Assembly: GCA_963662175.1 (NCBI GenBank)
Contig: OY759221.1
Location: forward strand, 31,432,045-31,496,044
DNA: 64,000 nucleotides
Source of the DNA: Aradus depressus
Taxonomy: Eukaryota > Arthropoda > Insecta > Hemiptera > Aradidae
Reading direction: 5' to 3'
Under the pieces are notes generated by a model. The model ran no database searches, was not told the origin of the DNA, and worked only from the letters and a program-made list of their open reading frames with translations. Positions 1,669 to 60,340 of the stretch are shown here, in pieces. The position numbers and the translations under genes were made by a program. The first letter of the stretch is position 1. Each line of letters opens with the position of its first letter.

Positions 1669-1707
1669 AACGATGTTTCGGGACGTTCTTACGTCCCATC
1701 ATCAGGT
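1669..1707 (-). ncRNA. Hammerhead-like motif, family F4
   Basis: On the minus strand the order is CTGATGA, an extra T, helix II GGGACG paired with CGTCCC (loop TAAGAA), GAAA, then CATCGTT. A short helix III with cleavage triplet GTT is possible, but helix I is only about two pairs. Only a single arm is present here. The core matches the hammerhead consensus; activity is inferred. Confidence 0.5.
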
Positions 1708-1766
1708 CCCAATGTGGCGAGATATAGAAAAGAAAGAAAACAATGTAACTATAACAATAGATGAAA

Positions 1767-1770
<4 letters not shown>

Positions 1771-1808
<38 letters not shown>
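1771..1808. repeat. (TA)n microsatellite
   Basis: An uninterrupted TA run. Confidence 0.9.
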
Positions 1809-1811
<3 letters not shown>

Positions 1812-1937
1812 TCAATTATAAATGAATGTATAAAAATGTCTAAATAAAAAAATATATATAAATGAATAAATAAAATAATAACATACATTGGACTGACTTT
1901 TAAGGTGTATATAATATACAATAACTGCCGTTGTAAT

Positions 1938-2685
1938 TAGGGATTGCAATCTCCGGATTTGATCTTGAAATTTCGGGATTCAACTTTTTCAATCCCGGTA
2001 TTAACGGGATTTGCGGAATTGACTAAAATAACATCTAAAAAATGATTTATGAAGAAAAAACAAAAAAAAATTAATTTTAAAGTTTACATATTTATGCTGA
2101 AAAATATGCCCTTAAAAAGCATAATGTTTCCAAAGAGTTATCCCCCTAATCTTGACCTCAGCTTGGTACACAAGTACCCAGTCGCAGAAAAGGCCCTTTC
2201 GGCCTCTACACTGATCGGTGGAATTGTTAGCAATGATCTGTACACAATGTTTAAGTACAATCCTCTTTTACCATTGTTTTCGTAAACACTCATTTCTTTC
2301 TTCAGCTGGCTCTCCAGATCTCCTTTCATTCTCTTCGGTGAACTTTCGGTTGTAAATTTCTTTATTTCTTGTTTAAGTGCATTTCTCATTGATTATTCGT
2401 CATTACCGTGTCCGGTAAGTTCTTATTGGATTGTATTCGATGACGAAGGAAGAGTATACCCAGCTATTTCAAAAACCTTTCGGAGATCTACTGAAGTCTC
2501 TCAAATTTACATAAAATCCTTACTTGCCTTCTTTTAATATTCTACCTTATTGTTATTCCCTTAAAATATATAGATATTTTTTTTTAAAGATATGGATTAT
2601 TAAAAACATTTAAAAAAACAAAATAAAATAAATCCCGAGTTTGTGAAAAGTGAAAAATGCCGGGATTCCATGATTGCAATTCTTA
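1938..2685 (-). mobile_element. hAT transposon remnant with TIRs and 8-bp TSD
   Basis: The left end TAGGGATTGCAATC (1938-1951) is the inverted counterpart of GATTGCAATTCTTA (2672-2685), with 12 of 14 bases paired. The flanks are GTTGTAAT (1930-1937) and ATTGTAAT (2686-2693), an 8-bp target duplication with one change. An 8-bp duplication and TAGGG-type ends are hAT hallmarks. At 748 bp it is far shorter than an autonomous hAT element and keeps only the transposase tail. Confidence 0.85.
2092..2389 (-). pseudogene. hAT transposase C-terminal dimerisation domain, frameshifted
   Basis: This is the end of a cut-and-paste transposase of the hAT family. The minus-strand frame from 2389 contains IPPISVEAERAFSATGYL and TKLRSRLG, matching the hAT dimerisation motif (P-x-S-x-E-R-x-F-S, then R-x-x-L). 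Near 2137 one extra base breaks the frame. In the next frame the expected tail GDNSLETLCFLRAYFSA follows, ending at a stop at 2092-2094. The catalytic domain and BED finger are gone, so it cannot be active. It lies inside the TIR-bounded element 1938-2685. Confidence 0.85.
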
Positions 2686-2699
2686 ATTGTAATGTATTG

Positions 2700-4051: not shown

Positions 4052-4401
4052 AGGGCGCCGGTAGCTCAGTGGTATGCGTGCTTGACTTCTGAGCTCAAGG
4101 TCGTGGGTTCGTAGCCCGACCGAGGCCCTTAGTTTATTTTATCTGGGAGGTAAAATAAACTTAAGCACGCCGTCCTTCGGATGGGACGTTAAGCGATGGT
4201 CCCGAGCCTGTACGATGTCAGGTACTCGTTAAAGACCCCAACCCTAGATGAATAAAAATTTAGGGTAGGCAAAATTTAGGACTCCCACAGTAGAGTCGGG
4301 CTCATGTTCACCAGAGTGACGAAAGAGCGCTCTGGTAGTAGGCGATATGACCTCGTAGTTAAAGCCCGGGCATGAGTCATAAAACCTAACCTAACCTAAC
4401 C
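4052..4401 (+). mobile_element. SINE-A, complete copy with 13-bp TSD
   Basis: This is a tRNA-derived SINE of about 350 bp. The head has an A box (TAGCTCAGTGGTATGCGTG) and a B box (GGTTCGTAGCC), the internal RNA polymerase III promoter elements. The body carries GTCAGGTACTCGTTAAAGAC and the foldback GAGCGCTCTGG. The tail is AACCTAACCTAACCTAACC. The 13-bp flanks TATACATATATAA (4039-4051 and 4402-4414) are identical, which marks a recent insertion by target-primed integration. Confidence 0.9.
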
Positions 4402-4425
4402 TATACATATATAATAAGGGATTAC

Positions 4426-4510
4426 ATTCGGTATTGCTACCATCTTCAGCCACGACTTAACAAATACTGCATTTGTTAAGTCGTGGCTGAAGATGGTAGC
4501 AATATCGAAA
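4426..4510. repeat. Near-perfect hairpin, 40-bp arms
   Basis: Arms 4426-4465 and 4471-4510 are inverted copies with about two mismatches around a 5-base loop (ACTGC). The core arm is GCTACCATCTTCAGCCACGA. It sits between the SINE-A target duplication and the end of LINE-K. It could be a foldback remnant or a small-RNA precursor shape. Confidence 0.85.
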
Positions 4511-4511
4511 G

Positions 4512-5050
4512 TACTCCCACATTATACAATAGAATACTTAATGGCCTAGATTTTTGACGGCGTACAAGTGATTACATTAGATCGATGAGGTGACTAGTCT
4601 TCATTGAGGATAGGACGGCTTCTATAGACGAGTTGTCATCTCCTAGCATCTTATGTAGGTTTCTTGTTCGTAAACCCATGGTCATTAATATTTCCTCATA
4701 TTCAGGGCACTCCTCCAGGATGTGGCTTACTGTGAGACGCCAGGCCCCACACTTGCCACAGCCCGGGGCCGTCACCCTGTTGATGAGGTTGCCATGGGTA
4801 AGCCGAGTGTGGCCTACATGGAGTCACATCAGACATACCTCCTCCTGCCTAATCTGCCTTTCGGAGCTTTTCCATTTATCAATATTTGTTTTGATGGCTC
4901 TAAGTTTATTTGCTTGGTCCATGTTAGTCCACACAGAGGCCCTCTCCTCCAAGCTCTTTTTTATTTTGCGACGCAGGCAGTTCTTCAGGTCTGGTATTAT
5001 CGTGACTACCATTTCTTCACCAGGCAACGTTCTCATATTACATATATTTT
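4512..5050 (-). pseudogene. LINE-K relic: C-terminal region of a non-LTR retrotransposon
   Basis: One minus-strand frame from about 5063 to 4572 encodes the region after RNase H in I/jockey-like LINE proteins: WKSSERQIRQEEV, LHVGHTRLTHGNLINR, then the zinc-binding motif CGKCGAWRLTVSHILEEC and a tail ending DLM. The frame is broken by a single TGA near 4809, where an arginine codon (CGA) is expected. The rest is open, so decay is recent. The 3' UTR (AATCACTTGTACGCCGTC, then TCTAGGCCATT) runs to about 4512 and is shared with the + strand copy at 62085-62200. The 5' side is truncated near 5040, where the TTTTGTGAAATAGACAAT repeat starts. Confidence 0.75.
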
Positions 5051-5339: not shown

Positions 5340-6606
5340 TTAGGAGGTAGAGGGAGGAGGTAGAGGGAGGAGGTAGAAGGAGGAAGTAGAGGCAGGAGGT
5401 AGAGGCAGGAGGTAGAGGCAGGAGGCAAAGGCAGGAGGTAGAGGCAGGAGGTACAGGCAGAAGGTAGAGGCAGGAGGTAGAGGCAGGAGGTAGAGGGAGG
5501 AAGTAGAGGCAGGAGGTAGAGGCAGGAGGCATAGGCAGGAGGTACAGGCAGAAGGTAGAGGCAGGAGGTAGAGGCAGGAGGTAGAGGCAGGAGGTAGAGG
5601 CAGGAAGTAGAGGCAGGAGGTAGAGGCAGGAGGCATAGGCAGGAGGTAGAGGCAGGAGGTAGAGGCAGGAGGCATAGGCAGGAGGTAGAGGCAGAAGGTA
5701 GAGGCAGGAGGTAGAGGCAGGAGGTAGAGGGAGGAGGTAGAGGCAGGAGGTAGAGGGAGGAGGTAGAGGGAGGAGGTAGAGGCAGGAAGTAGAGGCAGGA
5801 GGTAGAGGCAGGAGGCATAGGCAGGAGGTAGAGGCAGGAGGTAGAGGGAGGAGGTAGAGGGAGGAGGTAGAAGGAGGAAGTAGAGGCAGGAGGTAGAGGC
5901 AGGAGGTAGAGGCAGGAGGTAGAGGCAGGAGGTACAGGCAGAAGGTAGAGGCAGGAGGTAGAGGGAGGAAGTAGAGGCAGGAGGTAGAGGCAGGAGGCAT
6001 AGGCAGGAGGTACAGGCAGAAGGTAGAGGCAGGAGGTAGAGGCAGGAGGTAGAGGCAGGAGGTAGAGGCAGGAAGTAGAGGCAGGAGGTAGAGGCAGGAG
6101 GCATAGGCAGGAGGTAGAGGCAGGAGGTAGAGGCAGGAGGCATAGGCAGGAGGTAGAGGGAGGAGGTAGAGGCAGGAGGTAGAGGGAGGAGGTAGAGGGA
6201 GGAGGTAGAGGCAGGAAGTAGAGGCAGGAGGCATAGGCAGGAGGTAGAGGCAGGAGGTAGAGGGAGGAGGTAGAGGGAGGAGGTAGAAGGAGGAAGTAGA
6301 GGCAGGAGGTAGAGGCAGGAGGCAAAGGCAGGAGGTAGAGGCAGGAGGTACAGGCAGAAGGTAGAGGCAGGAGGTAGAGGGAGGAAGTAGAGGCAGGAGG
6401 TAGAGGCAGGAGGCATAGGCAGGAGGTACAGGCAGAAGGTAGAGGCAGGAGGTAGAGGCAGGAGGTAGAGGCAGGAGGTAGAGGCAGGAAGTAGAGGCAG
6501 GAGGTAGAGGCAGGAGGCATAGGCAGGAGGTAGAGGCAGGAGGTAGAGGCAGGAGGCATAGGCAGGAGGTAGAGGCAGAAGGTAGAGGCAGGAGGTAGAG
6601 GCAGGA
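5340..6606. repeat. 13-bp minisatellite, about 97 copies, with higher-order repeats
   Basis: The unit is GGTAGAGGCAGGA with variants (GGCATAGGCAGGA, GGTACAGGCAGAA, GGTAGAGGGAGGA, AGTAGAGGCAGGA). The variant start GAGGGAGGAAG followed by the same variant order recurs at 5493, 5961 and 6377, spacings of 468 and 416 bases (36 and 32 units). All three minus frames stay open because the unit has no stop and 13 is not a multiple of 3. The long [17 protein letters not shown] frames are therefore artefacts. Confidence 0.97.
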
Positions 6607-6839
6607 GAAGAGCCAGAGATAAAGAGGATGGAGGGAGGATTGGAAAGGCGGAGGTAATTTGGATATGCAAATTTGTTGAGGGAAGGTGGCTTTAATGATG
6701 TGTTAATTTAGTGGGCTGCAGTGGGTCCGTCCGTTAGTGGCAGGGAATTTAAAATCGGGGCAAATCTCATTAATCTATGTGGATATATCTACCACTAAGC
6801 CATGTCTCGCCAAAATATTACAACAATATTCTGCTCTCA

Positions 6840-15639: not shown

Positions 15640-17245
15640 TTTTTTTTTTTTTTTTTCTATTCTTTAAGGCATTTCGACCACGAGGGTCATGGATGCCTGA
15701 TGGATGCAGGTCTGTGGGGATCCTTGCGGGTTAATTTGGATAGGCGTAGATTAATAATAATAAAAAAGATATGTACGGAATAGAAAGGCTATGTGATGAA
15801 GATAATTTTGTTTTATAATTTAGATAAGAGATTTGTGAATTGTAAGAAATTAAATAGTTGGGTAATTTGGAAGCTATTATTGGATAGAATTTCGGAAATA
15901 TCCACCGCAAGGTTGCAATTTTCATGCTGGGGACTATATGCCATGCATTCAGTCAGAATGTGTCTGACAGACAGTCCCACCCCGCAGCACTGACACAGAG
16001 GAGGGGGTTCCCGAGCCATCAGATATCCATGGGTCAGCCTCATGTGCCCTATACGTAACCGAGTTAAAATTACTTCTTCTTTCCTTTTTTCTCGTATTGA
16101 AGTGTTCCAGACGCGAGTGGAGCTTTTAATGGTCCTTAGCTTATTATCTGTCACACCGAGCCACCGAATCTGCCATTTGATCCAAACTCTTTCCTTGATG
16201 TAGGCAACGAAGTCACTTACAGGGACTTCGGATGTGGGTAGTCCTTCTAGAATGGCGCGCCTGGCATTCTTGTCTGCTGACTCATTACCTGCAATGCCGC
16301 AATGACCTGGGATCCAGAGGAAGGTAACTGAAGTCTGGTTTCTTCCTAATGACCATAGGGCCATCAATATATTTTGGACAAGGAGATCTTCTGAATACAG
16401 ATTCCCCATGGCCAATAGAGCCGACAGGGAGTCACTGCAGACTATCAGTTGGCTTCCATTGGGGACAGAGACGTTCAGACTCTTGCCAATAGCTACTAAT
16501 TCCGCTGTCACGTTGCTGCACAGTGAAGGAAGGGCAAATAGGTAGATCCTCTCATCGAAAACCACCGCAGCTCCTACTCCGTTAGGGTGTTTTGACCCGT
16601 CTGTATACATAAACGTTGCGTCGGGGAAATCATTTTTGATCTTCATAAACTCATGTTGATATACTATAGGAGGGGTGTCTTTCTTTAGTAATTTGGTCAG
16701 GTTGAGGCATATCTTTGGTGCGGGTATTAACCAGGGTTCAGTGCGCGTTAAGCCTAATCTTTGCAATCTGGGGGTGTCGATGTTATATTCTTCCAAAAGC
16801 AAAGCAACTCGTGTTGGGAAGGGTTTTTGACGACCAGGAAAGTCCATATTATTCCGGGGGTGTTGATCGTTCGGGAACAGCTTGCTAAGTGGATGGGTGA
16901 GTAGGGCTTGAATTTTTGCATAGTAGGTTAGTATTAATTGATCCCTTCTATATTGTAAAGGTAATTCTCCCGCGTCACACAAACTCTGATGGTAGGACTG
17001 GATCGAAACGCACCTGTAGCTATTCTGAGGCCTGTGTGATGGACACTGTCAACCATCTGTAATGTCCTTGGGCTGGCGGAACCATAAGCCAAGCACCCAT
17101 AGTCCAACTTGGATCGTATCAGGCTTTTGTATAGCATGAGAATACTAGTACGGTCAGCACCCCAGGAAGTGTTACCAACCGTTTTCAGCCAGTTTAGTGA
17201 TCGAAGACAGCTTGCACGAAGAGCCTTGATATTACTGAAGAGCCT
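15640..17245 (-). mobile_element. LINE-B, 5'-truncated non-LTR retrotransposon
   Basis: The element begins (3' end) at a T run at about 15640-15656, the complement of its poly-A tail. It extends to about 17245, where recognisable RT sequence stops. It lies against or inside LINE-A, interrupting that reading frame. No target duplication could be identified. Confidence 0.7.
15813..17240 (-). pseudogene. LINE-B ORF2 C-terminal half: RT thumb, RNase H, zinc motif
   Basis: The minus frame starts in the RT connection region (NIKALRASCLRSLNWLKTVG, NTSWGADRTSIL, then LIRSKLDYGCLAYGSA). A frameshift near 16985 joins it to a 389-codon frame, CDAGELPLQYRRDQLILTYY onward. That frame carries RNase H with all four acidic positions visible: YTDGSKHPNGVGAAVVF (D), TAELVAIGKSL (E), VCSDSLSALLAM (D) and HCGIAGNESADKNARRA (H, D). 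The tail has LRIGHMRLTHGYL and the zinc motif CQCCGVGLSVRHILTEC. The endonuclease and RT palm are lost. RNase H plus this C-terminus fits the I/jockey-related LINEs; it is related to but distinct from LINE-I next door. Confidence 0.85.
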
Positions 17246-17749: not shown

Positions 17750-20700
17750 CTAAGGAATCTGGGGCTGATTTTGAATTTGCATTATAAATCTGTGAATGGA
17801 TTGGTAAATAAAAATGTTGCGGGTTATTAAAAGCTGGGGATAGTTAAAGGGGGCTTGGGTTAGCTTATACAGTTCAGTGAACATAAGTTCTCTCTGGGTA
17901 TGATATTTGGTACATGTAAGTACAATGTGCTCCAGGTTCTCCTCCACCCGACACACCCGGCACAGTGGGCTGTCTGCCTTGCCTATCCTAAAGAGATACG
18001 TCCCACAGATCCCGTGGTTCACCCTCAATCTATTGATATTAGTACATACAGACTTGGGGAGACAGGCCTCCCTGTACCAGGGTTCTGAGCCCACTCTCGG
18101 GTTCATCCTCTTATACCAACTTCCTTTGTCACTACTGGTATACATCTCTTGCCAAATGGACCGACAGTTCCTTTTAATTTGTCCACTAAGATCCTCTTTG
18201 GGTAGCCGGACTGGTAAGGGGGTCCCTTCTGATAACGCTTGTTTAGCAAAACCATCAACCACTTCGTTATATTTTATTCCTATATGAGCCTTAATCCAAC
18301 AGAACACTACAACTTTGCCTGACTCTTGTATGTTGTTTAAAGTCAATAGGAGGTCCAACTCGAAATTATTTAAGTGAACTCCAATTTTAATATTGCTAAG
18401 TTTTCTAATACAACTTTGACTGTCGGAAAAGATAACCACTCTATTGAAAGGTAACTTCTCTAAGTACTTTAAAGCCTCGAGAATGGCAACTAACTCGGCA
18501 GAATATATTGTTGTTAGCTCTGGCAACTTAAACAACTCAGATCTATCTAATTGTGGGTCAAAGAAGGCACAACCTACCTTACTGTCTTTTACAGAGCCAT
18601 CTGTAAAAATATAATGCCACTGTGGCCATAATAGCTGGATATCCATGGAGAAAGCAGAGTTGGTAAATAGCGATGGGATTGACGAATAGTCTCGCAAAAA
18701 GGCTGTAGAGATAGCAAGTTTATGCAAGAAGTACTGTGAGTTGTACACCGGTAATTTTGTGTTTACATAAATTTGGGTGTAATAATTGGTTATGGCTGTG
18801 AAATTATATGCTAAACTGGGTGACCTTTTTTTCTGCCAGAAGCTACTTGTTAGATCTAATTTTACTAATTGGGATATTTTATTAACTGTTGGAGATTCTA
18901 CAGAAATGAGTCGCAGCAAAAACCTTTGGGTTAAGATTTTTCGCCGAACTTCTAGCGGCGGTTCATTCGCTTCTGCATGAATAACATCTATCGGGGTGCT
19001 TCGTAGATATCCCTGGATTTGCCGCAAACAGCGATTCTGAACTAATTGTACCTTCTGGAGATTGGTTTTCGCTGCGTCGCCATAAAATAATGAGCCGAAG
19101 TCTATAATGGATCTTATGTTGGATCTGTAAAAGAGGAGGCCAATATTTGGATCAGAGCCCCACCTAAAATGGCTGAAACAGCGCAAGATGTTGATCCGGG
19201 ATTCTAACTGACCCAACAGATAGTTAATGTGCGCTTTCCAACTTAAAGTTTTATCTAAGTACAGACCCAAGAATTTAGCTTCCTTATTTACCCTATAGTT
19301 ATCATTACCAAGAGTGACTACTTCTCCCAAAGGTAACCTTCTCTGCCGAGAGAACGGACACAAAAAGGACTTACTAGAGGATATCGACAATCCGATCTGA
19401 AGGAACCATGCCTTGAGACTGGACATTGCCGTGTTAAGCGACTCTAAAGCCTTTTCAACGTTTTTATGTATTACATAAAGACAAATGTCGTCAGCATATT
19501 GCAGAATTCTCACACCAGGGGGTAAAACAGATTCAATACCAGAAACGTATAAGGCGTACAAAATGGGACTAAGTATATCACCCTGAGGGAGCCCGCTGTT
19601 AGCTACCCTAGGACCACACATAGTGTTACCAACTCTGAGATAAATATTTCTATCTGAAGCTAGATTTATAATACTTTTAGCCACTTTCCCTGGGATGCCA
19701 ATCTCAATCATTTTATTACCCAAAAGAGACAGATCTACGCTATCGTAAGCAGCTGAGATGTCTAAAAATACAGCCAAAGTGGATTTTTGTGTTGAAAATG
19801 CAAGGTGGATATCGGTTATCAGTTCAGAATGTGCATGATATATTGATTTGCCCTTTCGAAAACCAAATTGACTGGTTGGGAATTTATTATAATATTCTGC
19901 CCACCATTCGAGACGATACTTAATCATTCGTTGGAAGGTTTTTTTAACACAAGAGGAGAGGGAGATGGGACGGTAGGACTTGGCCTGGGATGGATCTTGG
20001 TTAGGTTTTAGGATGGGGATAACAAGATGCTCCCTCCAATCGTCCGGGAAGCAGCCTGAGCTCCACATCTCATTGAAAATGTGAAGTAATGCTATTTTAG
20101 CTTTGGGAGGTAGGTTAGAGAGCATAGAATAGTGAATATTGTCCATACCAGGAGCAGAATTGTTTACATTTTTTAATGCGGACTTCATTTCGGCTACTGT
20201 GAAGGGTTGTGAAAAGACGCTTTGGTCGGACTCATGGCTATCGAAGGTGTTCATAACAAAAGGAGGAGTAAGGTTTTCTAGGAACTCTTTTGTCCAGTCT
20301 CCTGTTTTGATGCAAGTAGGGATTTTTCCATTAATATTTTTTAATGATTTTAGTTTTTTCCAAATAACAGTTAATGGCGTATTTCGATTTAAGGACTCAC
20401 AAAATTCTGACCAATTTTTCTTTTTACTATCTTTTATGATTCTTTTCGTTTCTAATACTTTCCTTTGATAGTATAGAAAATTGTCTTTCGACGGATTCCT
20501 TTTGTATGTTAAGTAAGCCAGGTGTCGATCCCGGATATGTCTCTCACACTCCGAATTCCACCATGCTTTAGGTTTTCTCGAGTTGCTGTTAGACGGAAAA
20601 TTTGACGGAATGGCTTTTTCGCATGCCTCGTTAATGAGATTTATAAATTCATTGTATTTTACGTTTTTACAATTTTGATTGTTCATGTAGGATGAAAATG

Positions 20701-21430: not shown

Positions 21431-21459
21431 TCTAAGTTACAAAAATTGGACACCCTCCC

Positions 21460-23482: not shown

Positions 23483-23563
23483 GTAAGTCAATTTAGTTTA
23501 CTGGACAACAATAACCTATTGTTCTAGTAATAAAATACGTTGTCTTCCCATTGTTTTATTTTA

Positions 23564-23606
23564 GACCAGAACCGGTTTTCGACGCAACAGCGTCATCATC
23601 AGTGGT
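23564..23606 (-). ncRNA. Hammerhead-like ribozyme motif, family F2, left arm
   Basis: Minus strand: helix I strand ACCA, CTGATGA, extra T, helix II GACGC/GCGTC with loop TGTT, GAAA, helix III AACCGGTT, triplet TTC, then helix I strand TGGT, which pairs with ACCA. All core positions match the hammerhead consensus apart from the extra T after A9. Confidence 0.65.
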
Positions 23607-23855
23607 TCATCTATGATATAATAATAAAATATACAAATAATGAAAAGTATAAATAACTCTTAGAGCATCAGGGTATAGAGTTACAAGATAAAAATTATAA
23701 ACTTACTTACCTCACCCCCACAGCACAGCGGTTAAAGGACGACTGGCATAGCTCTAAGGGGTGGAGATAGCTAGGTTCACTCACTCTCTCTACATATAAA
23801 ACCATTCATTCTAATATACACAATAACTAAAACAAGTCTCTACATAATAGTAACA

Positions 23856-24201
23856 GAGGGCGCCGGTAGCTCAGCGGTATGCGTGCTTGACTTCTGAGCT
23901 CAAGGACGTAGGTTCGAAACCCGACCGAGGCCCTTAGTTTATTTTATCTGGGAGGTAAAATAAACTTAAGCACGCCGTCCTTTGGATGGGACGTTAAGCG
24001 ATGGTCCCGAGCCTGTACAATGTCAGGTACTCGTTAAAGACCCCTACCCTAGATTAATAAAAATTTAGGGTAGACAAAATTTAGGACTCTCACAGTAGAG
24101 TCGGGCTCATGTCCACCAGAGTGACGAAAGAGCACTCTAGTAGTAGGCGATATGACCTCGTAATTAAAGCCCGGGCATGAGTCATAAAACCTTACCTAAG
24201 C
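23856..24201 (+). mobile_element. SINE-A, complete copy inside the F2 palindrome
   Basis: The flanks TAATAGTAACA (23845-23855 and 24202-24212) form an exact 11-bp target duplication. Head A and B boxes are intact (GGTTCGAAACC). The tail is worn (CCTTACCTAAG). Confidence 0.9.
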
Positions 24202-24404
24202 TAATAGTAACATAATATAAAATTCTGTGGCTGTATGGTGAATTTTATATTATGTCCCCACCCCTTAGAGCTATGCCAGTTGTCCTTTAACCGCTGTGCT
24301 GTAAGTAAGTTTATAATTTTTATCTTGTTACTCTGTATCCTGATGCTTTAAGAGTTATTTAAACTTTTCATTATTTGTATATTTTATTATTATATCATAG
24401 ATGA

Positions 24405-24446
24405 ACCACTGATGATGATGCTGTTGCGTTGAAAACCGGTTTTGGT
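24405..24446 (+). ncRNA. Hammerhead-like ribozyme motif, family F2, right arm
   Basis: Same order as the left arm. Helix II is GATGC/GCGTT, still fully pairable through G-T wobbles, and the cleavage triplet is TTT. Two changes relative to the left arm keep the helix intact. Confidence 0.6.
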
Positions 24447-24578
24447 CTAAAATAAAACAGTGGGAAGACAACGTCTTTTATTTCTATGAGAAATCTCGTC
24501 CCACAACATCTTACTATCCCATACGGATAACCTATTCTACCCTGGTGTGGGGGTGGGTGGGGGGTAATGCCTCCACTA

Positions 24579-27488: not shown

Positions 27489-27822
27489 TTAGGTTAGGTT
27501 AGGTTTTATGACTCATGCCCGGGCTTTAACTACGAGGTCATATCGCCTACTACCAGAGCGCTCTTTCGTCACTCAGGTGGACATGAGCCCGACTCTACTG
27601 TGGGAGTCCTAAATTTTGCCTACCCTAAATTTTTATTCACCTAGGATAGGGGTCTTTAACGAGTACCTGACATTGTACAGGCTCGGGACCATCGCTTAAC
27701 GTCCCATCAGAAGGACGGCGTGCTTAAGTTTATTTTACCTCCCAGATAAAATAAACTAAGGGCCTCGGTCGGGTTACGAACAGAAGTCAAGCACGCTTAC
27801 CACTGAGCTACCGGCGCCCTCC
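27489..27822 (-). mobile_element. SINE-A
   Basis: A nearly full copy from GGTTAGGTTAGG to CCGGCGCCCTCC, with part of the head lost around 27780. The flanks AATTAAGA(GA)TT on both sides suggest the target duplication. Confidence 0.88.
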
Positions 27823-34950: not shown

Positions 34951-35246
34951 GAGACAGCAAAACTCTTGAGAATAAGTCTCAACAGAAAATAAGAAAAAAT
35001 AAAAATAGAAGAGAATACAAAAGAACAGAACCCTGGAAAGAAGTTAGCTAATGGAAAAAAGTTCTTTCCCATGAGTGCCATTGGTAAAAAACCTGAGGCA
35101 GTCGTGGAGCCGATAGCAGATAGAACAGTATACTGAGAAAACTCAGGATTGTTGTCTGTACAGACTCACAGTGAAACAACAATCTGTATTTCGCAGGATG
35201 TCAAAAATAAGGTAGTCTGACCTCTCACAGATTTTTTATTAAGTAA

Positions 35247-35282
35247 GCTAGCCGGCTTTCGAGGTTTCCCTCATCATCAGGC
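35247..35282 (-). ncRNA. Hammerhead-like ribozyme motif, family F1, left arm
   Basis: Minus strand: CTGATGA, extra T, helix II GAGG/CCTC closed by GAAA, then core GAAA, self-complementary helix III AGCCGGCT and triplet CTA. Helix I is short (GC/GC). Confidence 0.6.
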
Positions 35283-35423
35283 AGTCTGATAAAAATTTGA
35301 ATAAACTAAATAATAAAAATAACTCGTCTGTCCCCATCCATGATATTTTAAATTGTTAATGTTTGTTGTAGATTTTTATTTATTTATTTTTATTATTTAG
35401 TTTATTCAAATTTTTATCAGACT

Positions 35424-35459
35424 GCCTGATGATGAGGGAAACCTCGAAAGCCGGCTAGC
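35424..35459 (+). ncRNA. Hammerhead-like ribozyme motif, family F1, right arm
   Basis: Exact inverse partner of the motif at 35247-35282. Also readable as the peptide CLMMRETSKAG and TAG, matching the end of the Penelope frame at 50983. Confidence 0.6.
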
Positions 35460-35704
35460 TTACTTAATAAAAAATCTGTGAGAGGTCAGACTACCTTATT
35501 TTTGACATCCTGCGAAATAATCACTTCTCACTACATCAGCCATCTTCATATTAACAATCTGTATTTGTAAACTTAGAGAGTAGTAGAGAAGAATAGGGCA
35601 AATTCAACTGCGAGCTTCAAAAATGTTCACCCGGTAGAATGTTTCCTCCGGATCTCAGGGTCCGATCTAGGCTTCTAGAGAAGAACTAAAATGCCATTTT
35701 AAGT

Positions 35705-35752: not shown

Positions 35753-35950
35753 CCATAGCCTTATTTTTCGTCCAATTGGTTTTTACAATCTAGGAAATAG
35801 ACGTTTCGGGAATAACTCCCATTAAAAATCATTAATTGACTCACATAGGGGATGCTGAATCCTTTTACTAAATTTTGGTTGTTGATTAGCGACTGTAGAT
35901 TCTAATTGTAGGCATATTGAGTCAAAGATAGAAGAAAACACTATTCAAAC

Positions 35951-35987
35951 GCCAACGTTTCGATATATTTTATATCATCATCAGGGC
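35951..35987 (-). ncRNA. Hammerhead-like ribozyme motif, family F3, left arm
   Basis: Minus strand: helix I GCC, CTGATGA, extra T, helix II GATATA/TATATC with loop AAA, GAAA, helix III ACGT, triplet GTT, helix I GGC. Helix I pairs perfectly over three positions. Confidence 0.6.
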
Positions 35988-36524
35988 CTACAAACATGGG
36001 TGGGGAGGGGGGGGGGGGGGGAGGGGGGAGAGGAATCAAGATTAGAATCACAAATAAACAAAAGTGTGTTGATAAACATTACTGAAAGTTAAAATAGACA
36101 TTATAACAAGTTAAAAATTGAACCTGACTTACTATGAATACATTAATCAACATTAAAATTACATATAGATACAATGTTAACCATAAACATGAACGTACAT
36201 TAATACAAATTAAAATTAACTATGAATACATTACTAAACATAAACATTAATAATGGAAATAGACAAATAGGTGGAACATAATAATCATTTTAGTTTTTAC
36301 TCTTTATTATGTTCCACCATATTTAATTTTAATTTGTATTAGTGTAAGTTCATCTTTATGGTTAACAATAAATCTATATTTAATTTTAACGTTGAGTAAT
36401 GTATCCATAGTAAGTCAGTTTCAAATTTTAACTTGTTATAATTTCTATTTTAACGTTCAGTAATGTTTATCAACACACTTTTGTTTATTTGTGATTCTAA
36501 TCTTGATTCCCCCCATGTTTGTAG

Positions 36525-36561
36525 GCCCTGATGATGATATAAAATATATCGAAACGTTGGC
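36525..36561 (+). ncRNA. Hammerhead-like ribozyme motif, family F3, right arm
   Basis: Inverse partner of 35951-35987 with the identical core and helices. Confidence 0.6.
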
Positions 36562-36607
36562 ATTTGAATAGTGTTTTCTTCCATCTTTAACTGACCCTCA
36601 ACATTCC

Positions 36608-37140
36608 TACAACTAAATTTTGTGTCGATACATTCATTACATCGGCAGTTATTGGGGTTTTTGAGTTGAGCCCCCTCTAATCCCCCTTCCCTTCGTCCGA
36701 TTCTGCTGAAAATTGATGTGTCGTTCTTATGAGGTTCAGAATTCAAATATAAAATGTCATGTCGATACATTCATTACATCGGCAGTTATTAGGGTTTTTC
36801 AGTTGAGCTCTCTCTGTCCTTCCCTTTGGTCGATTACAATTGATAAGGTTTTGAATTTACATATAAAATTTGGTGTCGATACATTCTTTACAACGGCAGA
36901 TTCTTTTGGCAGATTCGGCTGAAAATCAATAGATGTCGTCCTCAGCGATTTCTGGATACAAATATAAAATTTTGTGTATATGTACATTCATTCTATCGAG
37001 AGTCATCGTGTTAACTGACAGACACACACAGACAAAATTTTTTTTTTTTTAATTTTTGGAATCAGGTTGACAGAAAATATCGAATTTCTGTCCGATTACA
37101 TAACTTCATCTATACAACTTCGTATAGCTGGGAAAGTAAA
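36608..37140 (+). repeat. Rep-C, nearly full length
   Basis: It has three internal units, each starting GTCGATACATTCATTACATC or a variant. The TGTGTTAACTGACAGACACA segment, a T run and GATTACATAACTTC follow, then the foldback ending GTATAGCTGGGAAAGTA. It abuts the F3 palindrome. Confidence 0.82.
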
Positions 37141-44457: not shown

Positions 44458-44802
44458 GGTTTAGGTTTAGGTTTTATGACTCATGCCCGGGCTTTAACTA
44501 CGAGGTCATATCGCCTACTGGCGCTCTGTCATGTCACTCTGGTGGACATGAGCCCGACTCTACTGTGGGAGTCCTAAATTTTGCTTACCCTAAATTTTTA
44601 TTCACCTAGGGTAGGGGTCTTTAACGAGTACCTGACATCGTACAGGCTCGGGACCATCGCTTAACGTCCCATCCGAAGGACGGCGTGCTTAAGTTTATTT
44701 TACCTCCCAGATAAAATAAACTAAGGGCCTCGATCGGGTTACGAACCCACATCCTTGAGCTCAGAAGTCAAGCACGCATACCACTGAGCTACCGGCGCCC
44801 TC
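44458..44802 (-). mobile_element. SINE-A, complete copy with 12-bp TSD
   Basis: The flanks ACAAATAATATA (44446-44457 and 44803-44814) are identical. The tail is degenerate (GGTTTAGGTTTAGG), with TTTAGG rather than TTAGG. A and B boxes are present in the complement. Confidence 0.9.
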
Positions 44803-45360: not shown

Positions 45361-45560
45361 TACACTTTTTTTTTGTTAAGGTTTTTAAAGGAAGCCGGAT
45401 CCTCAAGCCTTCCAAGATATCCATACGTCTTCTTTTGGTACCCTCCTGCAAGAGTGCCACTATGGTTTTCATTATGGCCCTCGTTTTGACAATAAATAAA
45501 GTCTGTGTGACTCGAGTCAGTACTACTAGAGATGTAAAAGCAGAAGTGACTGCTGTATCA
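45360..45560 (-). pseudogene. Possible Penelope-like GIY-YIG C-terminal fragment
   Basis: The minus frame reads VALLQEGTKRRRMDILEGLR then IRLPLKT. It parallels SLLQHIQKSRKMDILESIKI in the GIY-YIG frame at 50983. The catalytic start is missing. Similarity is short, so the call is moderate. Confidence 0.45.
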
Positions 45561-47811: not shown

Positions 47812-48150
47812 AATAACATAACAGTTCTATTAAAAATACGTTCTATGAGTGGAAAAGGCAGACACAAAAATAAAAATTGCGCACTGTAGTAAACTTATGG
47901 AACGGTGGCGAAAAGGCGCAGCAAAGACAGTGTACACCCGAGCTAACTTGTGGAGGGGATATGTGATATTCTCTGTAGAGTGATTGTGACTGCCTCTAGC
48001 TCTGACGGCGTATTTACTTCGTTGTCGTGTTACATTACTGGTATTACACGAGATAATATGAAGATGGCTGATGTAATGAGAAGTGATTATTTCACAGGAT
48101 GTCAAATATAAGATAGTCTGACCTCTCACCGATTTTTATTGGTAGTAATA

Positions 48151-48186
48151 GCTAGCCGGCTTTCGAGGTTTCCCTCATCATCAGGC
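48151..48186 (-). ncRNA. Hammerhead-like ribozyme motif, family F1
   Basis: Same core as 35247-35282; predicted triplet CTA. Confidence 0.6.
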
Positions 48187-48391
48187 AGTCTGATAAAAAA
48201 TTAAAAAGTTTGAATAGAACTTTTGAATAATATAATGTCCACCATCTCAAGCAGTTGTGACTCAGATGGTGGACAGGGATAACTCGTCTGTCCCCATCCA
48301 TATTTTAAATTGTTAATGTTTTAGATTGTTATTTATTTATTTTTATTATATTATTTAGTTCTATTCAAAATTTTAAATTTTTTATCGGACT

Positions 48392-48427
48392 GCCTGATGA
48401 TGAGGGAAACCTCGAAAGCCGGCTAGC
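48392..48427 (+). ncRNA. Hammerhead-like ribozyme motif, family F1
   Basis: Right-arm partner of 48151-48186, identical core. Confidence 0.6.
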
Positions 48428-48489
48428 TATTACTACTAATAAAAATCTGTGAGAGGTCAGACTATCTTATATTTGACATCCTGTGACAC

Positions 48490-48904
48490 GAGATAATCTA
48501 TCAAGTGTGCAAAATTTTATTCTGAATTATTGTCAACAATTTTCATATAATAAGTGAACCGTAACGTTGGTAATTTAATATTTCCGAAATTAATCCGGAT
48601 TTATTATACTCGTATTGTGTTATTATACTCGTATTGTAATTAAGACTATCGTATTGGCGAAATATTAATTGTAATAAATGAATTATAAATGAATAAATGC
48701 TGGATTTGGAGGATTATTAATATTTAATAGAATATAAAATTACACAACGTGATATTATCAAATAAGAGAATAGAATAGAACAAATGAAATATTATATTAA
48801 AAATGTTTCTACTGAAATGTCATTCCTTTTTTCTCTTCCATTGAACATACACAGACGATGTTTATACAGAGTAAATAATTGGACTTTTCTAGGAAAACAG
48901 GCTA
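48490..48904. other. No feature seen
   Basis: AT-rich sequence with a small tandem (TTATACTCGTATTG twice near 48605). Confidence 0.4.
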
Positions 48905-50745: not shown

Positions 50746-50981
50746 AATTTATTTTCTTTACTTTAATAGAAAATAATTATAAGAATAAGCGGTCCATTCT
50801 TCTTCAAATCTGTAGAAGATTTTAATGATCTGACTCAGCCAATTTCATGAATTTTAGTAGATTCATAGATAAACCGACTTTAGTGAAAATAATGTATAAT
50901 ATGAAGATGTAGTGAGAGTGATTATTTCACAGGTTGTAAAACAAAATATAGTCTGAAATCTCACAGATTTTATTTATATTT

Positions 50982-51018
50982 GCTAGCCGGCTTTCGAGGT
51001 TGCCCTCGTCATCAGGCA
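50982..51018 (-). ncRNA. Hammerhead-like ribozyme motif overlapping the GIY-YIG stop codon
   Basis: Minus strand: helix I TGC, CTGATGA, extra C, helix II GAGG/CCTC with GCAA tetraloop, GAAA, helix III AGCCGGCT, triplet CTA, helix I GCA. Helix I pairs over three positions. This is the best-preserved F1 motif. The predicted cut lies between 50984 and 50983, inside TAG. Confidence 0.65.
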
Positions 51019-51358
51019 GCCTACAAAGAAACAGGTTTTGTTGGTTACAGGTACTATCCTCTCTATAGAGTTGAGGAGGGGGGACTCTCCCTTTCTCCTA
51101 TCCAATATAATTTTTATACTTTCTAGGATATCCATCTTCCTACTTTTTTGGATATGTTGTAGCAACGAGGCTGAGCAGGCCTCAAGTTCTGTGTTTTGGA
51201 GGCGTTGGAAGAAGAATTCAGAGTCTCCCCTCCTCAATTGTTCCCCCACTCTAGTCCTCAGCTTCCGGCCTGTCTGCCCAAGATAAAAACAATTACAATC
51301 TTTACAATTAATCCTATACATACCGGATTTGTCAGAGAGTTTCTTTGTTGCTTAATGA
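50983..51358 (-). pseudogene. Penelope-like GIY-YIG endonuclease domain
   Basis: This nicking nuclease domain primes integration in Penelope-like retroelements. The minus frame is open from about 51358: KKLSDKSGMYRINCKDCNCF, then YLGQTGRKLRTRVGEQL. These carry the GIY-equivalent (MYRI), the YIG-equivalent (YLG), the catalytic Arg region (GRKLRTR) and the CxxC pair typical of the Penelope GIY-YIG variant. The second part reads ACSASLLQHIQKSRKMDILE, then SIKIILDRRKGESPLLNSIE. The frame ends GCLMTRATSKAG and TAG. The RT domain and start are missing, cut by the inverted arm. The last 11 codons also encode the hammerhead-like motif. Confidence 0.85.
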
Positions 51359-51479
51359 TTTTTTTTTATGCCCTATGATGAGGGCAACCTCAAAAGCCGG
51401 CTAGAAAATATAAGTAAAATTTGTGAGAGGTCAGACAGAATTTTGTTTTACAACCTGTGAAAAAATAACGCATGTCCTT

Positions 51480-52074: not shown

Positions 52075-52575
52075 AGAGTTCGGGATGAACCCTGGAGTTC
52101 GGAAGTGTGTCTTTTGTTCATTTGGAGTTTGGGATTAACTCTAGAGTTCGGAAGTGTGTCTTTTGTTCATATGGAGTTTGGGATGAACCCTGGAGTTCGG
52201 AAGTGTGTCCTTTGTTCATATGGAGTTTGGGATGAACCCTGGAGTTCGGAAGTGTGTCCTTTGTTCATATGGAGTTTGGGATGAACCCTGGAGTTCGGAA
52301 GTGTGTCTTTTGTTCATATGGAGTTTGGGATGAACCCTGGAGTTCGGAAGTGTGTCCTTTGTTCATATGGAGTTTGGGATGAACCCTGGAGTTCGGAAGT
52401 GTGTCCTTTGTTCATATGGAGTTTGGGATGAACCCTGGAGTTCGGAAGTGTGTCTTTTGTTCATATGGAGTTTGGGATGAACTCTAGAGTTCGGAAGTGT
52501 GTCTTTTGTTCATATGGAGTTTGGGATGAACCCTGGAGTTCGGAAGTGAGTCCTTTGTACATATGGAGTTCGGGA
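52075..52575. repeat. 49-bp tandem repeat, about ten copies
   Basis: The unit (TTCGGAAGTGTGTCCTTTGT, then TCATATGGAG, then TTTGGGATGAACCCTGGAG) starts at 52098, 52147, 52196, 52245, 52294, 52343, 52392, 52441, 52490 and 52539. Middle copies are identical or differ by one base; end copies are more worn. Just outside, 52586-52612 holds an inverted partial unit (ACAAAGGACACACTTCTCAC). Confidence 0.95.
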
Positions 52576-52789
52576 TGAACTCTGGAAATACAAAGGACAC
52601 ACTTCTCACTTGGAGAAACGAATCCTGAAATGAACAACTGTTCTATGTATGAAACACTCTATGGGGGGAGACAGTGTGTAATCTGTGGAGACAAGCAGGA
52701 AAGGAATAATGGAGGAAAAGATGTTTAAGCAGTGCATACAAAGGTTATACAAGAGGCAATGACAGAGGTACAGATGGCAGTAGCAAGGT

Positions 52790-53225: not shown

Positions 53226-53409
53226 GTCAATCTGTGACGATCGGTGATCGCTCCAAACTCGACATAGCCTCACTTAATCAACACTCTGATTAATAGCTCT
53301 CTCGACATAATATGTCGTAATATAATAATAATCATCATATGATGAGTCCGGGTTGCACACATTCAAGGTGCACCCAAAAATAGTTAGTTATAAATAAAAA
53401 GTTCATAGA
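53226..53409. other. Unassigned sequence
   Basis: It contains a small inverted motif CGACATAATATGTCG near 53304. Nothing else seen. Confidence 0.35.
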
Positions 53410-53560
53410 AATAAAAGATGTCTTCGCACTGTTTTATTTCCGACCGCAACCAGCTTTCAACAGCGTCATCAGTGGTAGATCCCACCCACACAGCGTAGTG
53501 GTTAGAGTTCTCCAGTTCTCCTCTGTGTGAAATAAAAATCTATATAATAGTAGGTAAATG
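53410..53560 (-). repeat. F2 arm, single and worn
   Basis: It has GTCTTCGCACTGTTTTATTT, then CAGCTTTCAACAGCGTCATC, then CCCACCCACACAGCGTAGTG. Part of helix II of the hammerhead-like core is deleted. Confidence 0.6.
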
Positions 53561-56959: not shown

Positions 56960-57055
56960 TTAACGTTTACGTTGTCTAATTGCAAAAAAATATATACATT
57001 AAAGTGTACGGGTTTCAACTTACGTCATCGTCAGAACAAAGTTCAAAAGTGAAAA
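56960..57055 (-). repeat. F6-family repeat
   Basis: It is in reverse orientation to 50610-50745. It shares AACTTTGTT, the core and TACACTTTAATGTATA, then the GACAACG end. Confidence 0.6.
57004..57036 (-). ncRNA. Hammerhead-like ribozyme motif, family F6
   Basis: Minus strand: CTGACGA, extra T, helix II GAC/GTT with GTAA tetraloop, GAAA, helix III AC/GT around CC, triplet GTA. Position 7 is C, which the consensus allows. Helix I is weak in this copy (GUU against CAC). Confidence 0.5.
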
Positions 57056-58169: not shown

Positions 58170-58580
58170 ACTTTACTTTCCCTGGCGCTACGGTCCTTGC
58201 AGAACCTGGGCCTCCGCAACGATCTTCCGCCATTCTTCTCTATCCTCGGCCTCCCGTCTCCATCTTCTCACACCCATCCTTCTGAGGTCGTCCTCCAGCC
58301 AACGTAAGCGGGGTCTACCTCTTCTTCTTTGTCCTCCCGGGTGTCCCTCCAATATCCGCCTCGGCAATCTGTCTGACTCCATCCTTTGTAAATGCCCCAG
58401 CCATCGTAGCCGCCCCCTGCTTCACGAAGGTCACCAGGTCCGTATCCCTCTATCTATCCCCCTCTGGAGTAGGGCCCTATACCTTCCTCTCCCACGTATT
58501 GAGCACGACCGTCCCTCACAGTCAGGTTTCACTCGCATATGTGACGACCGGTCTCAGGACTGTTCGTGTTGTACACAGAC
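58170..58580 (-). pseudogene. RTE-like LINE relic
   Basis: Minus strand: TVLRPVVTYASET remnants near 58560, then VLNTWERK. These lead into a frame reading MESDRLPRRILEGHPGGQRR, then GRPRLRWLEDDLRRMGVRRW and EDREEWRKIVAEAQ, ending at 58188. This is the same LINE group as 41043 but a different family, and is worn by frameshifts upstream. It lies inside Rep-C-derived DNA. Confidence 0.8.
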
Positions 58581-58589
58581 AGACATTTT

Positions 58590-58735
58590 TACTTTCCCAA
58601 CTATACGAAGTATAGATGAAGTTATGTAATCGATCCGAAATTAAATATTAAGTTTTCATAGGATTTCATGTTTCCCGGCTCCCTCATTCTGTCTGTCTAT
58701 ATATGTGCCTGTGAACTTCCGATAGAATATGAATG
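58590..58735 (-). repeat. Rep-C 3' end
   Basis: It has TTTACTTTCCCAACTATACG and AAGTATAGATGAAGTTATGT (terminal foldback in reverse), then CTTCCGATAGAATATGAATG. Confidence 0.75.
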
Positions 58736-59288
58736 AAAAGTTGCTCGAAGGGCGCATAACGAGTATGTGAGTACTGCAGGTAGCTATGCAAATGAGAAAG
58801 TCTGGAGTTGATGGGTGGGATCTAGTAGACAGTTCTGTTATAAGCCGAAGAACGTGACCTGAACTCCAATAGGAGTAACTAGATGCTCAGAATTTCCTCC
58901 TGATGTCACTCAACTCAAGAAGATCAATCTCCCTTGTTTGTGCAGTCTTATTAATTTGAAGAAATTTTTACATTCATATATAAAGCTTAGTAGTCTATAC
59001 AGGTGTATAAGGTGTGTTTTGCGGCTCTGTCGTTACAGTAAAGTTCAATTATACTGTCGAGGCTATGAGAATGCCCTCCTTATTATGTGGCGCCCTCTGT
59101 GGCTGCTCCCAGATCGCAGGGGATGTGCCTCCAATTACATGTGTCCATATAATAGAGATAGTCTATGAGTTTCCCTTAATGAAACTACGCACAGTGTTGT
59201 TGATACTGCTTGTTTGTTAATTTTTTTCCTTTATCATTGTTATATATTATTTACCTAATGTTATAATCTAGGGATTATTAAATATGTA
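58736..59288. other. Unassigned; two short overlapping + frames near 58938-59220
   Basis: A GC-richer stretch at 59010-59165 (GGCGCCCTCTGTGGCTGCTC) has 76- and 68-codon frames without a recognised motif. I checked it as a possible tetraspanin exon and found no fit. Confidence 0.3.
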
Positions 59289-59455
59289 CTATTCTTGCCT
59301 TTTTTTGGCGAACGTATTTATTATATCATCCATAGCTGAAGAAGATTTAGTTTCTCAGGTTCTTCTTTTTCTATGGACAGTATTGATAAGTCCGATAGCC
59401 GTTCTTGTCCCATAAAAGTTCTAAGATCATTTTTAATAAGTTTTAATTTAGAAAT
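59289..59455 (-). pseudogene. hAT-like transposase C-terminal tail
   Basis: Minus frame from about 59455: ISKLKLIKNDLRTFMGQERL, then SDLSILSIEKEEPEKLN. A frameshift and then SSSAMDDIINTFAKKRQE with a stop at 59289-59291 follow. R-L-x-x-L-x-x-L-S-I-E followed by a short D/K-rich end is the typical tail of zinc-finger MYM/hAT-type transposases. Upstream, 59534-59548 (GTAGCTACGCCCCTG) looks like the TAG/CAG-type terminal repeat of such an element, so this may be an internally deleted copy of about 0.3-0.4 kb. Only about 55 codons remain. Confidence 0.65.
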
Positions 59456-59548
59456 TTAGGCTTGGCTTTTATCAATATGACTATGAAAAACATTTTACGA
59501 TTTTTACATACGCATGTATCATTGCTACAGCGGTAGCTACGCCCCTGA

Positions 59549-60099
59549 ATGGAACTATATTGTGGGGGGGGGGCATACATTTAATATTCTTAAGTAAGAA
59601 GGTTCAACATTGTCCTGATCTTATGGGCCACATTCATGAGTTTTATGGAGAACAGTAAATATTTACCTGTCTCTTTATTAAAGATCTGGTAAAGAGTCTC
59701 CACAGTCTTTAATAAAGTAGAAAGGTTTTATGATAGGTCAGTAAACTCCGAATAGCCTGAGAAAAAGGATGCTCTCCACAAAACGGAACCCATATAACAA
59801 ATTTATGACGTTCGTCTATCACATAATGAATTTCTACATTCTTATACATAAAGTATAAGAATGTATTCTAATAGTGTGAAAATCTGAGATCGTGTTTTCA
59901 ACGGATTTACAGGTTTCAAGATCCCCTAAACATGTGACATGAAGTCTATCTGTATGTGGGTTCATGAGTAGGCCGAAAAATACCACTTAACAACTGGGCC
60001 TTACTACATTTTATAAGATGCCCTCATAATTTATAACCAAATCAAATATTTCTACAAATAAAACATGAGATACACATATGTGATAGAAAGATGTTGAGG
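59549..60099. other. No gene; G run near 59569
   Basis: Unassigned; includes a small foldback CTACATTCTTATACATAAAG and TATAAGAATGTA near 59835. Confidence 0.4.
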
Positions 60100-60340
60100 G
60101 ACGAGATTTCTCGTAAAAATAAAAGATGTTGTCTTCCCACTGTTTTATTTTAGACCAAAAACGGTTTTCGACGCAACAGCGTCATCATCAGTGGTTTATC
60201 TATCATAGAATAACAAAATATACAAAGAATAAAAATTATAAATAACTCTTAAAGCATCCGGGTACAGAGTAAGAAGATAAAAATTAGAAAACTTAACTTA
60301 CCCCACCCACCACTGTGCTGTGAGGGTGGGGTAAGTTAAT
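60100..60340 (-). repeat. F2 arm, single
   Basis: It matches the left arm at 23.5 kb from TGTTGTCTTCCCACTGTTTT to AACTTACCCCACCC. A small hairpin (TAACTTACCCCACCC against GGGTGGGGTAAGTTA) at 60297-60336 ends the arm, where the other arm would begin. Confidence 0.75.
60153..60195 (-). ncRNA. Hammerhead-like ribozyme motif, family F2
   Basis: Core and helix II (GACGC/GCGTC) are as at 23564. Helix III is AACCGTTT with one weaker pair; helix I ACCA/TGGT is kept. Confidence 0.55.

Follow-up and report, generated by a model that had tools for sequence, protein, structure and literature searches.

Hammerhead-like cores of Penelope-like retroelements in Aradus depressus and the unequal ends of their paired copies

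The window analyzed here, a 64-kb stretch of the Aradus depressus genome, holds copies of several repeat families carrying hammerhead-like cores. Some of these copies are insertions with two cores on opposite strands, flanked by target-site duplications (TSDs). The F2a insertion (23521..24526) is made of two F2 ends, truncated on their 5' sides and arranged head-to-head, whose cores lie at 23602(-) and 24409(+); it is bounded by ATAACCTATT at 23511-23520 and 24527-24536, its left end is short and its right end long, and a SINE-like insert lies within it (23856-24205). F1a (35192..35552; cores at 35280(-) and 35426(+)) is bounded by AACAATCTGTATTT at 35178-35191 and 35553-35566 and is likewise short on the left and long on the right. 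A long left and a short right end are found in the F3 insertion (35878..36611; cores at 35984(-) and 36528(+); TSD ACTAAATTTTG at 35867-35877 and 36612-36622) and in F1b (48058..48485; cores at 48184(-) and 48394(+); TSD ACACGAGATAAT at 48046-48057 and 48486-48497). Positions 48254-48310 of F1b match the last 20 residues of the ORF of a Penelope-like retroelement (PLE), the F1 PLE.

A remnant of this PLE, F1c, occupies 50896..51462 on the minus strand (ends approximate), with a core at 51015(-) and a degenerate partner core near 51373(+); it includes a remnant of the GIY-YIG endonuclease of the F1 PLE (51023..51351, minus strand). The F4 core (1663..1710, at 1705(-)) has the helix II GGGACG/CGTCCC. 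Other minus-strand features are a degenerate F2 copy, F2c (53401..53475), a decayed F6 core (57004..57042, at 57034(-)) with a GAC/GTT stem and a GTAA loop, and a further F2 copy, F2b (60077..60313, core at 60191(-)). F7, found at 4425..4520 as an outward pair of CTGAAGA cores, one at 4449(-), where GAAT replaces GAAA, and one at 4487(+), which has GAAA, is a further family, absent from the preliminary description of this DNA because its N7 is A; its plus-strand core has the helix I GTGG/CCAC and the palindrome AGTACT. ARAGORN found no tRNA in the window.

The preliminary description had named individual cores of F1, F2, F3, F4 and F6, all of which were recovered by a motif scan of the window. 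Leaving F6 aside, the window has 11 CTGAYGA...GAAA cores whose helix II reaches 4 bp or more, whereas 200 dinucleotide-shuffled versions of it average 0.115 such cores and never exceed 2; each of 629 permuted 7-mers yielded at most one such core in the same window, against the 11 of CTGATGA. Being copies of four families, the 11 cores are not 11 independent events. They contain the hammerhead consensus C3-U-G-A-N-G-A and GAAA and depart from the usual hammerhead in that helix II does not directly follow A9: the extra pyrimidine noticed earlier intervenes in all 11 (T, except for C at 51015). The helix II pairings proposed across the families were found as described, that of F4 measuring 7 bp, and so was helix I pairing in F1c, F2 and F3. 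Self-complementarity of helix III, attributed to every core, holds for F1, F2 and F3, and fails for F4 and for the F6 relative tested. The F6 core itself does exist, with a weak stem of 3 bp including a G.T pair; two other window copies have broken cores, and an intact relative with GGC-GTAA-GCC is found elsewhere in the genome (locus L091).

Genome-wide, exact cores number 2879 for F1, 1896 for F2, 2144 for F3, 656 for F4 and 3227 for F7 (any base being allowed at N7), 10,802 in the five families together; reversed-pattern controls gave zero matches for each of them. The extra U is near-obligatory in F1, where only one copy lacks it against the 2879 that carry it. In 12 sampled variants, whose helices were scored by script because a MAFFT alignment of 14 cores had misplaced GAAA between families, helix pairing is well above swapped and shuffled controls: helix II reaches at least 4 bp in 11 of the 12, compared with 17 of 132 combinations of swapped halves, and helix III is palindromic in nine (4 to 8 nt), six of which have a helix I of at least 3 bp, the other three less. 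The comparison of helix II with shuffled sequence that the preliminary description had named as one possible refutation was carried out on a subset: the first 100 genome matches listed for CTGATGATN{9,24}GAAA include 56 distinct inserts, 18 of which form a helix II of 4 bp or more, and shuffling the inserts gives 1.3 on average and 4 at most. The selected hammerhead RNA fold claimed for these repeats is well supported. The families had also been called unrelated. For F1, F2 and F3 this is wrong, as their coding homology makes them lineages of one retroelement class. Their helix II variation is divergence within homologous elements, and therefore still valid covariation.

The F1 PLE protein (locus L073) is 841 aa long, with matches to RVT_1 (E=1.7e-12) and GIY-YIG (E=1.7e-6); its C-terminal GIY-YIG domain scores 28.7 bits with PF01541, above the cutoff of 22.6, and the fragment within F1c scores 17.4 bits, under it. 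Identical F1 units lie in tandem 2819 bp apart, and an F3 tandem run comprises 7 cores about 3.1 kb apart. By tblastn, the coding sequences of F2 and F3 are 36-47% and about 26% identical, respectively, to the F1 PLE. The cores of F1, F2 and F3 adjoin PLE coding sequence and, judging from these domains and this homology, the three families belong to PLEs; inverted pseudo-LTRs (pLTRs), a tail and TSDs are all present in them. No PLE homology was detected by tblastn (E=0.01) at ten loci representing ten other core copies (L091-L100, with F6, F7 and F4 as L091, L092 and L093, and F8 to F11 also among them), one copy each and about 900 nt upstream being searched. The PLE link is therefore established for F1, F2 and F3 only; for F4, F6 and F7 the negative is weak, since F1 itself has many non-coding copies. 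The extra U creates, in F1 to F4, an AUG (A9-U-G10.1) overlapping the putative ribozyme. Counted by eye, 26 nt separate the A of this AUG from the predicted cut in F1, and in L073 the AUG opens, again by eye, a reading frame of 8 codons and is not the ORF start.

Paired cores tend to face outward. Among the first 100 matches listed per family, this orientation was found in 22 of 22 core pairs within 3.5 kb for F1, 22 of 23 for F2 and 23 of 31 for F3; in 21 close pairs of endonuclease matches, 13 are outward, none inward and 8 on the same strand. The layout of F4 is different: its first 100 listed matches contain, by eye, only 2 pairs spaced 3.5 kb or less. Measured downstream of the predicted cut, the 3' ends are of two lengths, about 97 and 59 nt in F1 and about 82 and 45 nt in F2, and one long and one short end are combined in 51 of the 52 measured pairs from three PLE lineages, namely 21 of 22 F1 pairs, 21 of 21 F2 pairs, 7 further F1 pairs and both F3 pairs, the last two placed solely by their TSDs, of which one is a low-complexity, AT-rich sequence. 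This count derives from a non-random sample, mostly from the start of contig C1, and from thresholds chosen for F1 and F2 after the pattern had been noticed. The sole F1 exception, L080, was classed as short/short.

TSDs of at least 11 bp flank 18 of 21 F1 pairs (a set omitting L081, which is included in the 22 classed as long or short); in 17 of the 18 the ends measure 93-100 and 54-62 nt, and in L078 98 and 69 nt. No convincing TSD was found for the F1 pairs L008, L080 and L084. F2 ends measure 77-84 and 42-50 nt at 18 of 20 loci, including L118 with its TSD of 9 bp, while L116 and L120 deviate. Since mismatched loci gave TSD scores as high as 12, the length of a TSD is not significant by itself. 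Another 20 F1 loci comprise the 7 further pairs, 12 single copies, five of which carry the short end, and L029, whose second end is unreadable. Of the 22 F1 pairs, 10 have the long end on the longer arm and 12 have the short end there, and there is thus no bias. A possible F8/F1 chimaera (L007), which would have shown two templates, was set aside because by eye it resembled a lone F1 lying within an F8 copy.

Rfam hammerhead models matched nothing in the whole window at the gathering threshold or at E=10, nor did they match at E=10 when two stretches of 121 bases, one centred on an F2 core and one on an F3 core, were scanned separately. Minimum free energy (MFE) folds of five window cores as lone strands did not yield the full hammerhead, with modest z-scores of -2.1 to +0.3. 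Folded as a double hammerhead, the dimers have the following energies, each followed by the cofold optimum (kcal/mol): -31.1/-31.6 in F2, -27.3/-31.9 in F1, -13.3/-21.5 in F3, -15.2/-16.9 in F7 and -22.6/-28.6 in F8b. In all of these families but F3 the dimer lies lower than the doubled monomer MFE, and energy therefore gives weak support to a double hammerhead.

We consider the cores to be minimal hammerhead ribozymes, and give this, taken as a single explanation with the PLE insertion scheme proposed below, a probability of roughly 0.85. That AT-rich palindromic repeats, in which hairpins are common, should look like hammerheads by chance is countered by the shuffled, permuted and swapped-arm controls and by the absence of reversed-pattern matches in five families, and has a negligible probability. 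The conserved hairpin might instead serve the PLE enzyme as a signal for packaging or protein binding, on RNA or DNA, its hammerhead likeness being ancestral. Such a signal would agree with the lone-strand folds, with the position of the hairpin in F1 and F2, some 42-100 nt away from the element ends where RT presumably starts, and with ribozyme mutants of an anole PLE that still insert in vitro (PMC11167929). A binding hairpin need not, however, keep both CTGATGA and GAAA while its helix sequences vary, as these cores do, even if the search patterns for the loci already required those letters, and we regard this role as improbable. Still less probable is that we are dealing with animal retrozymes, which are small, do not code for protein, carry classical type I hammerheads and spread via circular RNA: many copies are indeed short and non-coding (F1a and F1b are under 430 bp), and no coding sequence turned up for F4, F6 and F7 in the one copy examined of each, but retrozymes are described as short tandem repeats of 150-450 bp (PMC7229834), the cores of F1, F2 and F3 adjoin RT-EN coding sequence, and the final part of the PLE ORF persists in F1b. 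For F1 to F3 the retrozyme reading is disfavoured.

The 51 long/short head-to-head pairs out of 52 suggest that reverse transcription is primed by each of the two target strands, one per RNA start site. Inverted copies could also arise by self-priming on an antisense template, which Arkhipova and colleagues proposed for rotifer Penelope from head-to-head copies with junction palindromes (PMC3846280). In one of four F2 pairs compared, L101, both arms differ from the other pairs by the same one base, as in a copied arm. Self-priming alone does not predict one long and one short end in nearly every pair, short ends occur also on copies with no visible partner, and the anole enzyme is described as cutting and extending both strands in vitro (PMC11167929); we consider self-priming to be the unlikelier route, although a more serious contender than the alternatives above. 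The base difference common to the arms of L101 is equally expected from two RNAs of one source, and neither junction shape nor unequal arm lengths discriminate self-priming from two-strand priming.

In the scheme we propose, two PLE RNAs, or the two ends of one tandem transcript, would pair via the palindrome into a double hammerhead, and cleavage at H17 would free unit RNAs or trim the mRNA 5' end. The element protein would then nick both target strands and prime one cDNA from each, one per RNA start site, and the two truncated cDNAs would become joined head-to-head. We lean, by a small margin over even odds, towards each paired insertion being two coupled priming events, one per target strand, with each RNA start site used once. 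The division of labour between the start sites would be fixed, and an RT-EN dimer may bring it about, sitting either on a single RNA or on two RNAs held by the palindromic hammerhead helix III. Coupled two-strand priming, if true, would account jointly for head-to-head copies, a tail on one end and outward ribozymes; it would also settle a point that work on rotifer Penelope elements had left unanswered. A 2020 review calls the ribozyme role in Penelope elements "still a mystery" (PMC7761336). The exact cores, intact elements and young insertions of this genome provide counts for testing how PLEs insert, and the long/short rule limits the possible insertion mechanisms sharply and in quantitative terms, as single copies cannot.

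The ribozyme class is already known in PLEs; the strict two-end rule of paired copies goes beyond the preliminary description. Cervera and de la Pena in 2014 and Lunse et al. in 2017 reportedly described minimal type I hammerhead ribozymes in PLE pseudo-LTRs. Known PLE hammerheads, including that of anole PAc, share with the present ones a minimal core, a weak helix III, a position at the pLTR-ORF junction and tandem PLE units. Unlike them, the present cores have helix III palindromes in most of the sampled variants, which published PLE hammerheads may have too, and many helix II variants occur in one genome. De la Pena and Flores are said to have found in 2001 that a viroid hammerhead tolerates one extra residue, an A, by A9; here too one extra core residue lies next to A9, but it is a pyrimidine, and the setting is not a viroid.

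In anole PAc, the ORF starts at stem II, the cut lies 26 bp past the start codon, there are two RT start sites, and the ribozyme cut only with protein present (PMC11167929). F1 resembles it in having an AUG at the start of stem II and a predicted cut 26 nt further on, and differs in that this AUG is not the ORF start. Metazoan retrozymes also have hammerheads in mobile repeats and possible dimeric cleavage; they are short, non-autonomous tandem repeats, whereas F1, F2 and F3 belong to RT-EN elements (PMC7229834). Head-to-head inverted copies and short target-site duplications are shared with rotifer Penelope, for which a 31-bp tail on one inverted pLTR is described as optionally present (PMC3846280, PMC8969392). 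In the measured pairs of A. depressus, unlike that optional tail, a long and a short end are combined almost without exception, in three lineages.

The window contains 11 cores of the form CTGATGA-Y-helix-GAAA whose helix II has 4 bp or more. In 200 dinucleotide shuffles such cores averaged 0.115 and never exceeded 2, and 629 permuted 7-mers tried as a control gave at most one core each; the hammerhead-like cores claimed for these repeats in the preliminary description are thus present. All 11 are copies of families F1 to F4. Five or more families had been proposed: these four stand, F6 is a weak fifth, and F7, an inverted pair at 4425-4520 with a CTGAAGA core, had been overlooked and is newly added. 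Inverted pairs with outward cores are found in the copies F1a, F1b, F1c, F2a, F3 and F7, one core being damaged in both the F1c and the F7 pair; F2b, F2c, F4 and F6 have single cores.

The window was placed in contig C7 of the 697.7-Mb genome (G000), where exact core copies number 2879 for F1, 1896 for F2, 2144 for F3, 656 for F4 and 3227 for F7, each reversed pattern giving 0 matches. A loose core pattern matches 23287 times versus 2501 for its reversed control, an excess partly due to a satellite-like repeat without helix II (CTGATGATAAAATG..GAAA; G000:C1:113333-749118), which swells the loose counts.

Fold statistics were computed on 12 helix II variants sampled from window and genome, some of them sister variants and hence not all independent. 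Helix II reaches at least 4 bp in 11 of the 12; exchanging halves between variants yields pairing in 17 of 132 combinations. F8 and F8b, as judged by eye, have common flanks and different helices II, paired in both. The covariation proposed for this helix is borne out. A helix III palindrome of 4 to 8 nt is found in 9 of 12 (shuffled mean 1.6, maximum 7) and is missing in 3, and helix I reaches 3 bp or more in 6 of the 9 palindromic variants (5 of 72 with swapped arms), the other 3 falling short. Rfam models gave no hammerhead match, and the full hammerhead is absent from lone-strand MFE folds. A double hammerhead joined through the palindrome comes close in energy to the best cofold for F2; for the other four tried it comes less close. 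In the lone-strand fold of F1 at 35415-35465 (+), the core pairs with the 5' flank (AUCAG/CUGAU), possibly an inactive alternative fold. The hammerhead motifs are genuine, have been selected as RNA folds and belong to an already known kind; we infer that they self-cleave.

Inside F1c lies a GIY-YIG coding remnant that scores below the Pfam cutoff and whose genome relatives led to a coding Penelope-like retroelement (PLE) at locus L073, with three identical F1 cores, units spaced 2819 bp and an open 841-aa ORF bearing RVT_1 and GIY-YIG. PF00078 is present in about 112 (counted by eye) of the best 120 of 359 homologues found, and named proteins among these 120 include those of locust, tick, psyllid, butterfly and ant. 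Homologous coding sequence flanks F2 cores (36-47% identity) and F3 cores (about 26%), and the short window copy F1b retains coding sequence for the final 20 residues of the F1 ORF. PLE homology is absent within about 900 nt upstream at ten loci of other core copies (F4, F6, F7 and F8-F11 among them), and the PLE link is therefore established for F1, F2 and F3 only. A fragment at 45365-45460 (-) has 64% identity across 36 aligned residues with the F2 PLE endonuclease region. Seven F3 cores on one strand, spaced about 3.1 kb, form a tandem PLE array at G000:C1:10704408-10723185, a product that copying of circular or tandem RNA could make.

Other repeats also populate the window. A LINE-type retroelement at 17750-21864 (-) has a 1226-aa ORF encoding endonuclease, RVT_1 and RNase H, and a second ORF alongside; an RNase H-domain ORF at 15813-16982 (-) is probably another LINE remnant. 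A SINE-like repeat at 23856-24205, inside F2a, is flanked by the target-site duplication (TSD) TAATAGTAACA (by eye), has related copies at 4052-4351, 27495-27781, 29517-29803, 44460-44746 and 62255-62541, and gave no tRNA match with ARAGORN. Minisatellites lie at 5342-6607 (a 13-bp unit repeated about 97 times, with three open minus-strand frames) and 52076-52586 (a 49-bp unit repeated about 10 times), and a frame at 2100-2500 (-) resembles, as judged by eye, the C-terminal region of a hAT transposase.

Core pairs less than 3.5 kb apart, in the first 100 listed places of each family, are mostly outward: 22 of 22 in F1, 22 of 23 in F2 (1 same-strand), 23 of 31 in F3 (7 same-strand, 1 inward) and, by eye, 12 in F7 (plus 2 same-strand) and both F4 pairs. 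Endonuclease matches (150 scored of 3569 candidates) gave 21 close pairs, 13 outward, none inward and 8 same-strand. In 16 of 22 F1 pairs the summed length of the two arms matches the core spacing with a difference of at most 10 nt; the arms are often unequal. In 16 of the 22 close outward F2 pairs (loci L101-L119, for example) core starts are 57-135 bp apart, as if cDNA synthesis had ended soon beyond the ribozyme.

The two 3' ends differ in nearly every pair. As delimited by TSDs, F1 ends lie 93-100 and 54-62 nt past the predicted cut in 17 of 18 pairs (TSD of at least 11 bp), F2 ends 77-84 and 42-50 nt past it at 18 of 20 genome loci, and those of the window F2 pair at 84 and 48 nt. A TSD-independent test found one long and one short end in 21 of 22 F1 pairs (the other being short/short) and 21 of 21 F2 pairs; all seven additional F1 pairs in which the partner core is damaged agree, the long arm being slightly shortened at one locus (L027), as do, by TSD alone, the F3 window pair and one autonomous F3 pair. 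The total, 51 of 52, has a chance of about 3e-15 under independent ends, taking the long fraction (7/12) from single copies; L073, also long/short by eye from printed flanks, was left out. Single copies, whose partner could sit beyond the 3-kb loci, have 7 long and 5 short ends, so each reverse transcription start site appears usable alone. Self-priming is a possible source of paired insertions, compatible with the pairing taken alone, and its antisense form was put forward, and left open, for rotifer PLEs in the relevant passages of PMC3846280; two coupled priming events are the best explanation of the near-invariant long/short pairing. A literature search of partial coverage, with several main PLE papers outside it, found no earlier statement of this rule, the part most worth following up.

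The extra T of families F1 to F4 forms an ATG with A9 and G10.1; the F1 pattern lacking the extra U has 1 genome copy versus 2879 having it. At L073 the core ATG shares the ORF frame, but a stop follows 8 codons on (by eye) and the assumed initial methionine is 118 nt past the predicted cut; the conserved AUG is thus not the ORF start in this element. An anole PLE, as portrayed in parts of PMC11167929, has its ORF start at stem II and its cut 26 bp past the start codon, matching the 26 nt from the A of the core ATG to the predicted cut in F1 (counted by eye). The same account has two reverse transcription start sites bounding a 30-40 bp tail, and both strands cut and extended in vitro, the start site showing no strand difference. 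In rotifer PLEs the tail is described, in the sections of PMC3846280 dealing with it, as optional at one inverted pseudo-LTR, whereas here the long/short arrangement is nearly invariant (51/52). The PLE link of F1, F2 and F3 cores agrees with that reported for minimal hammerheads in portions of PMC6155905, PMC7761336 and PMC11167929.
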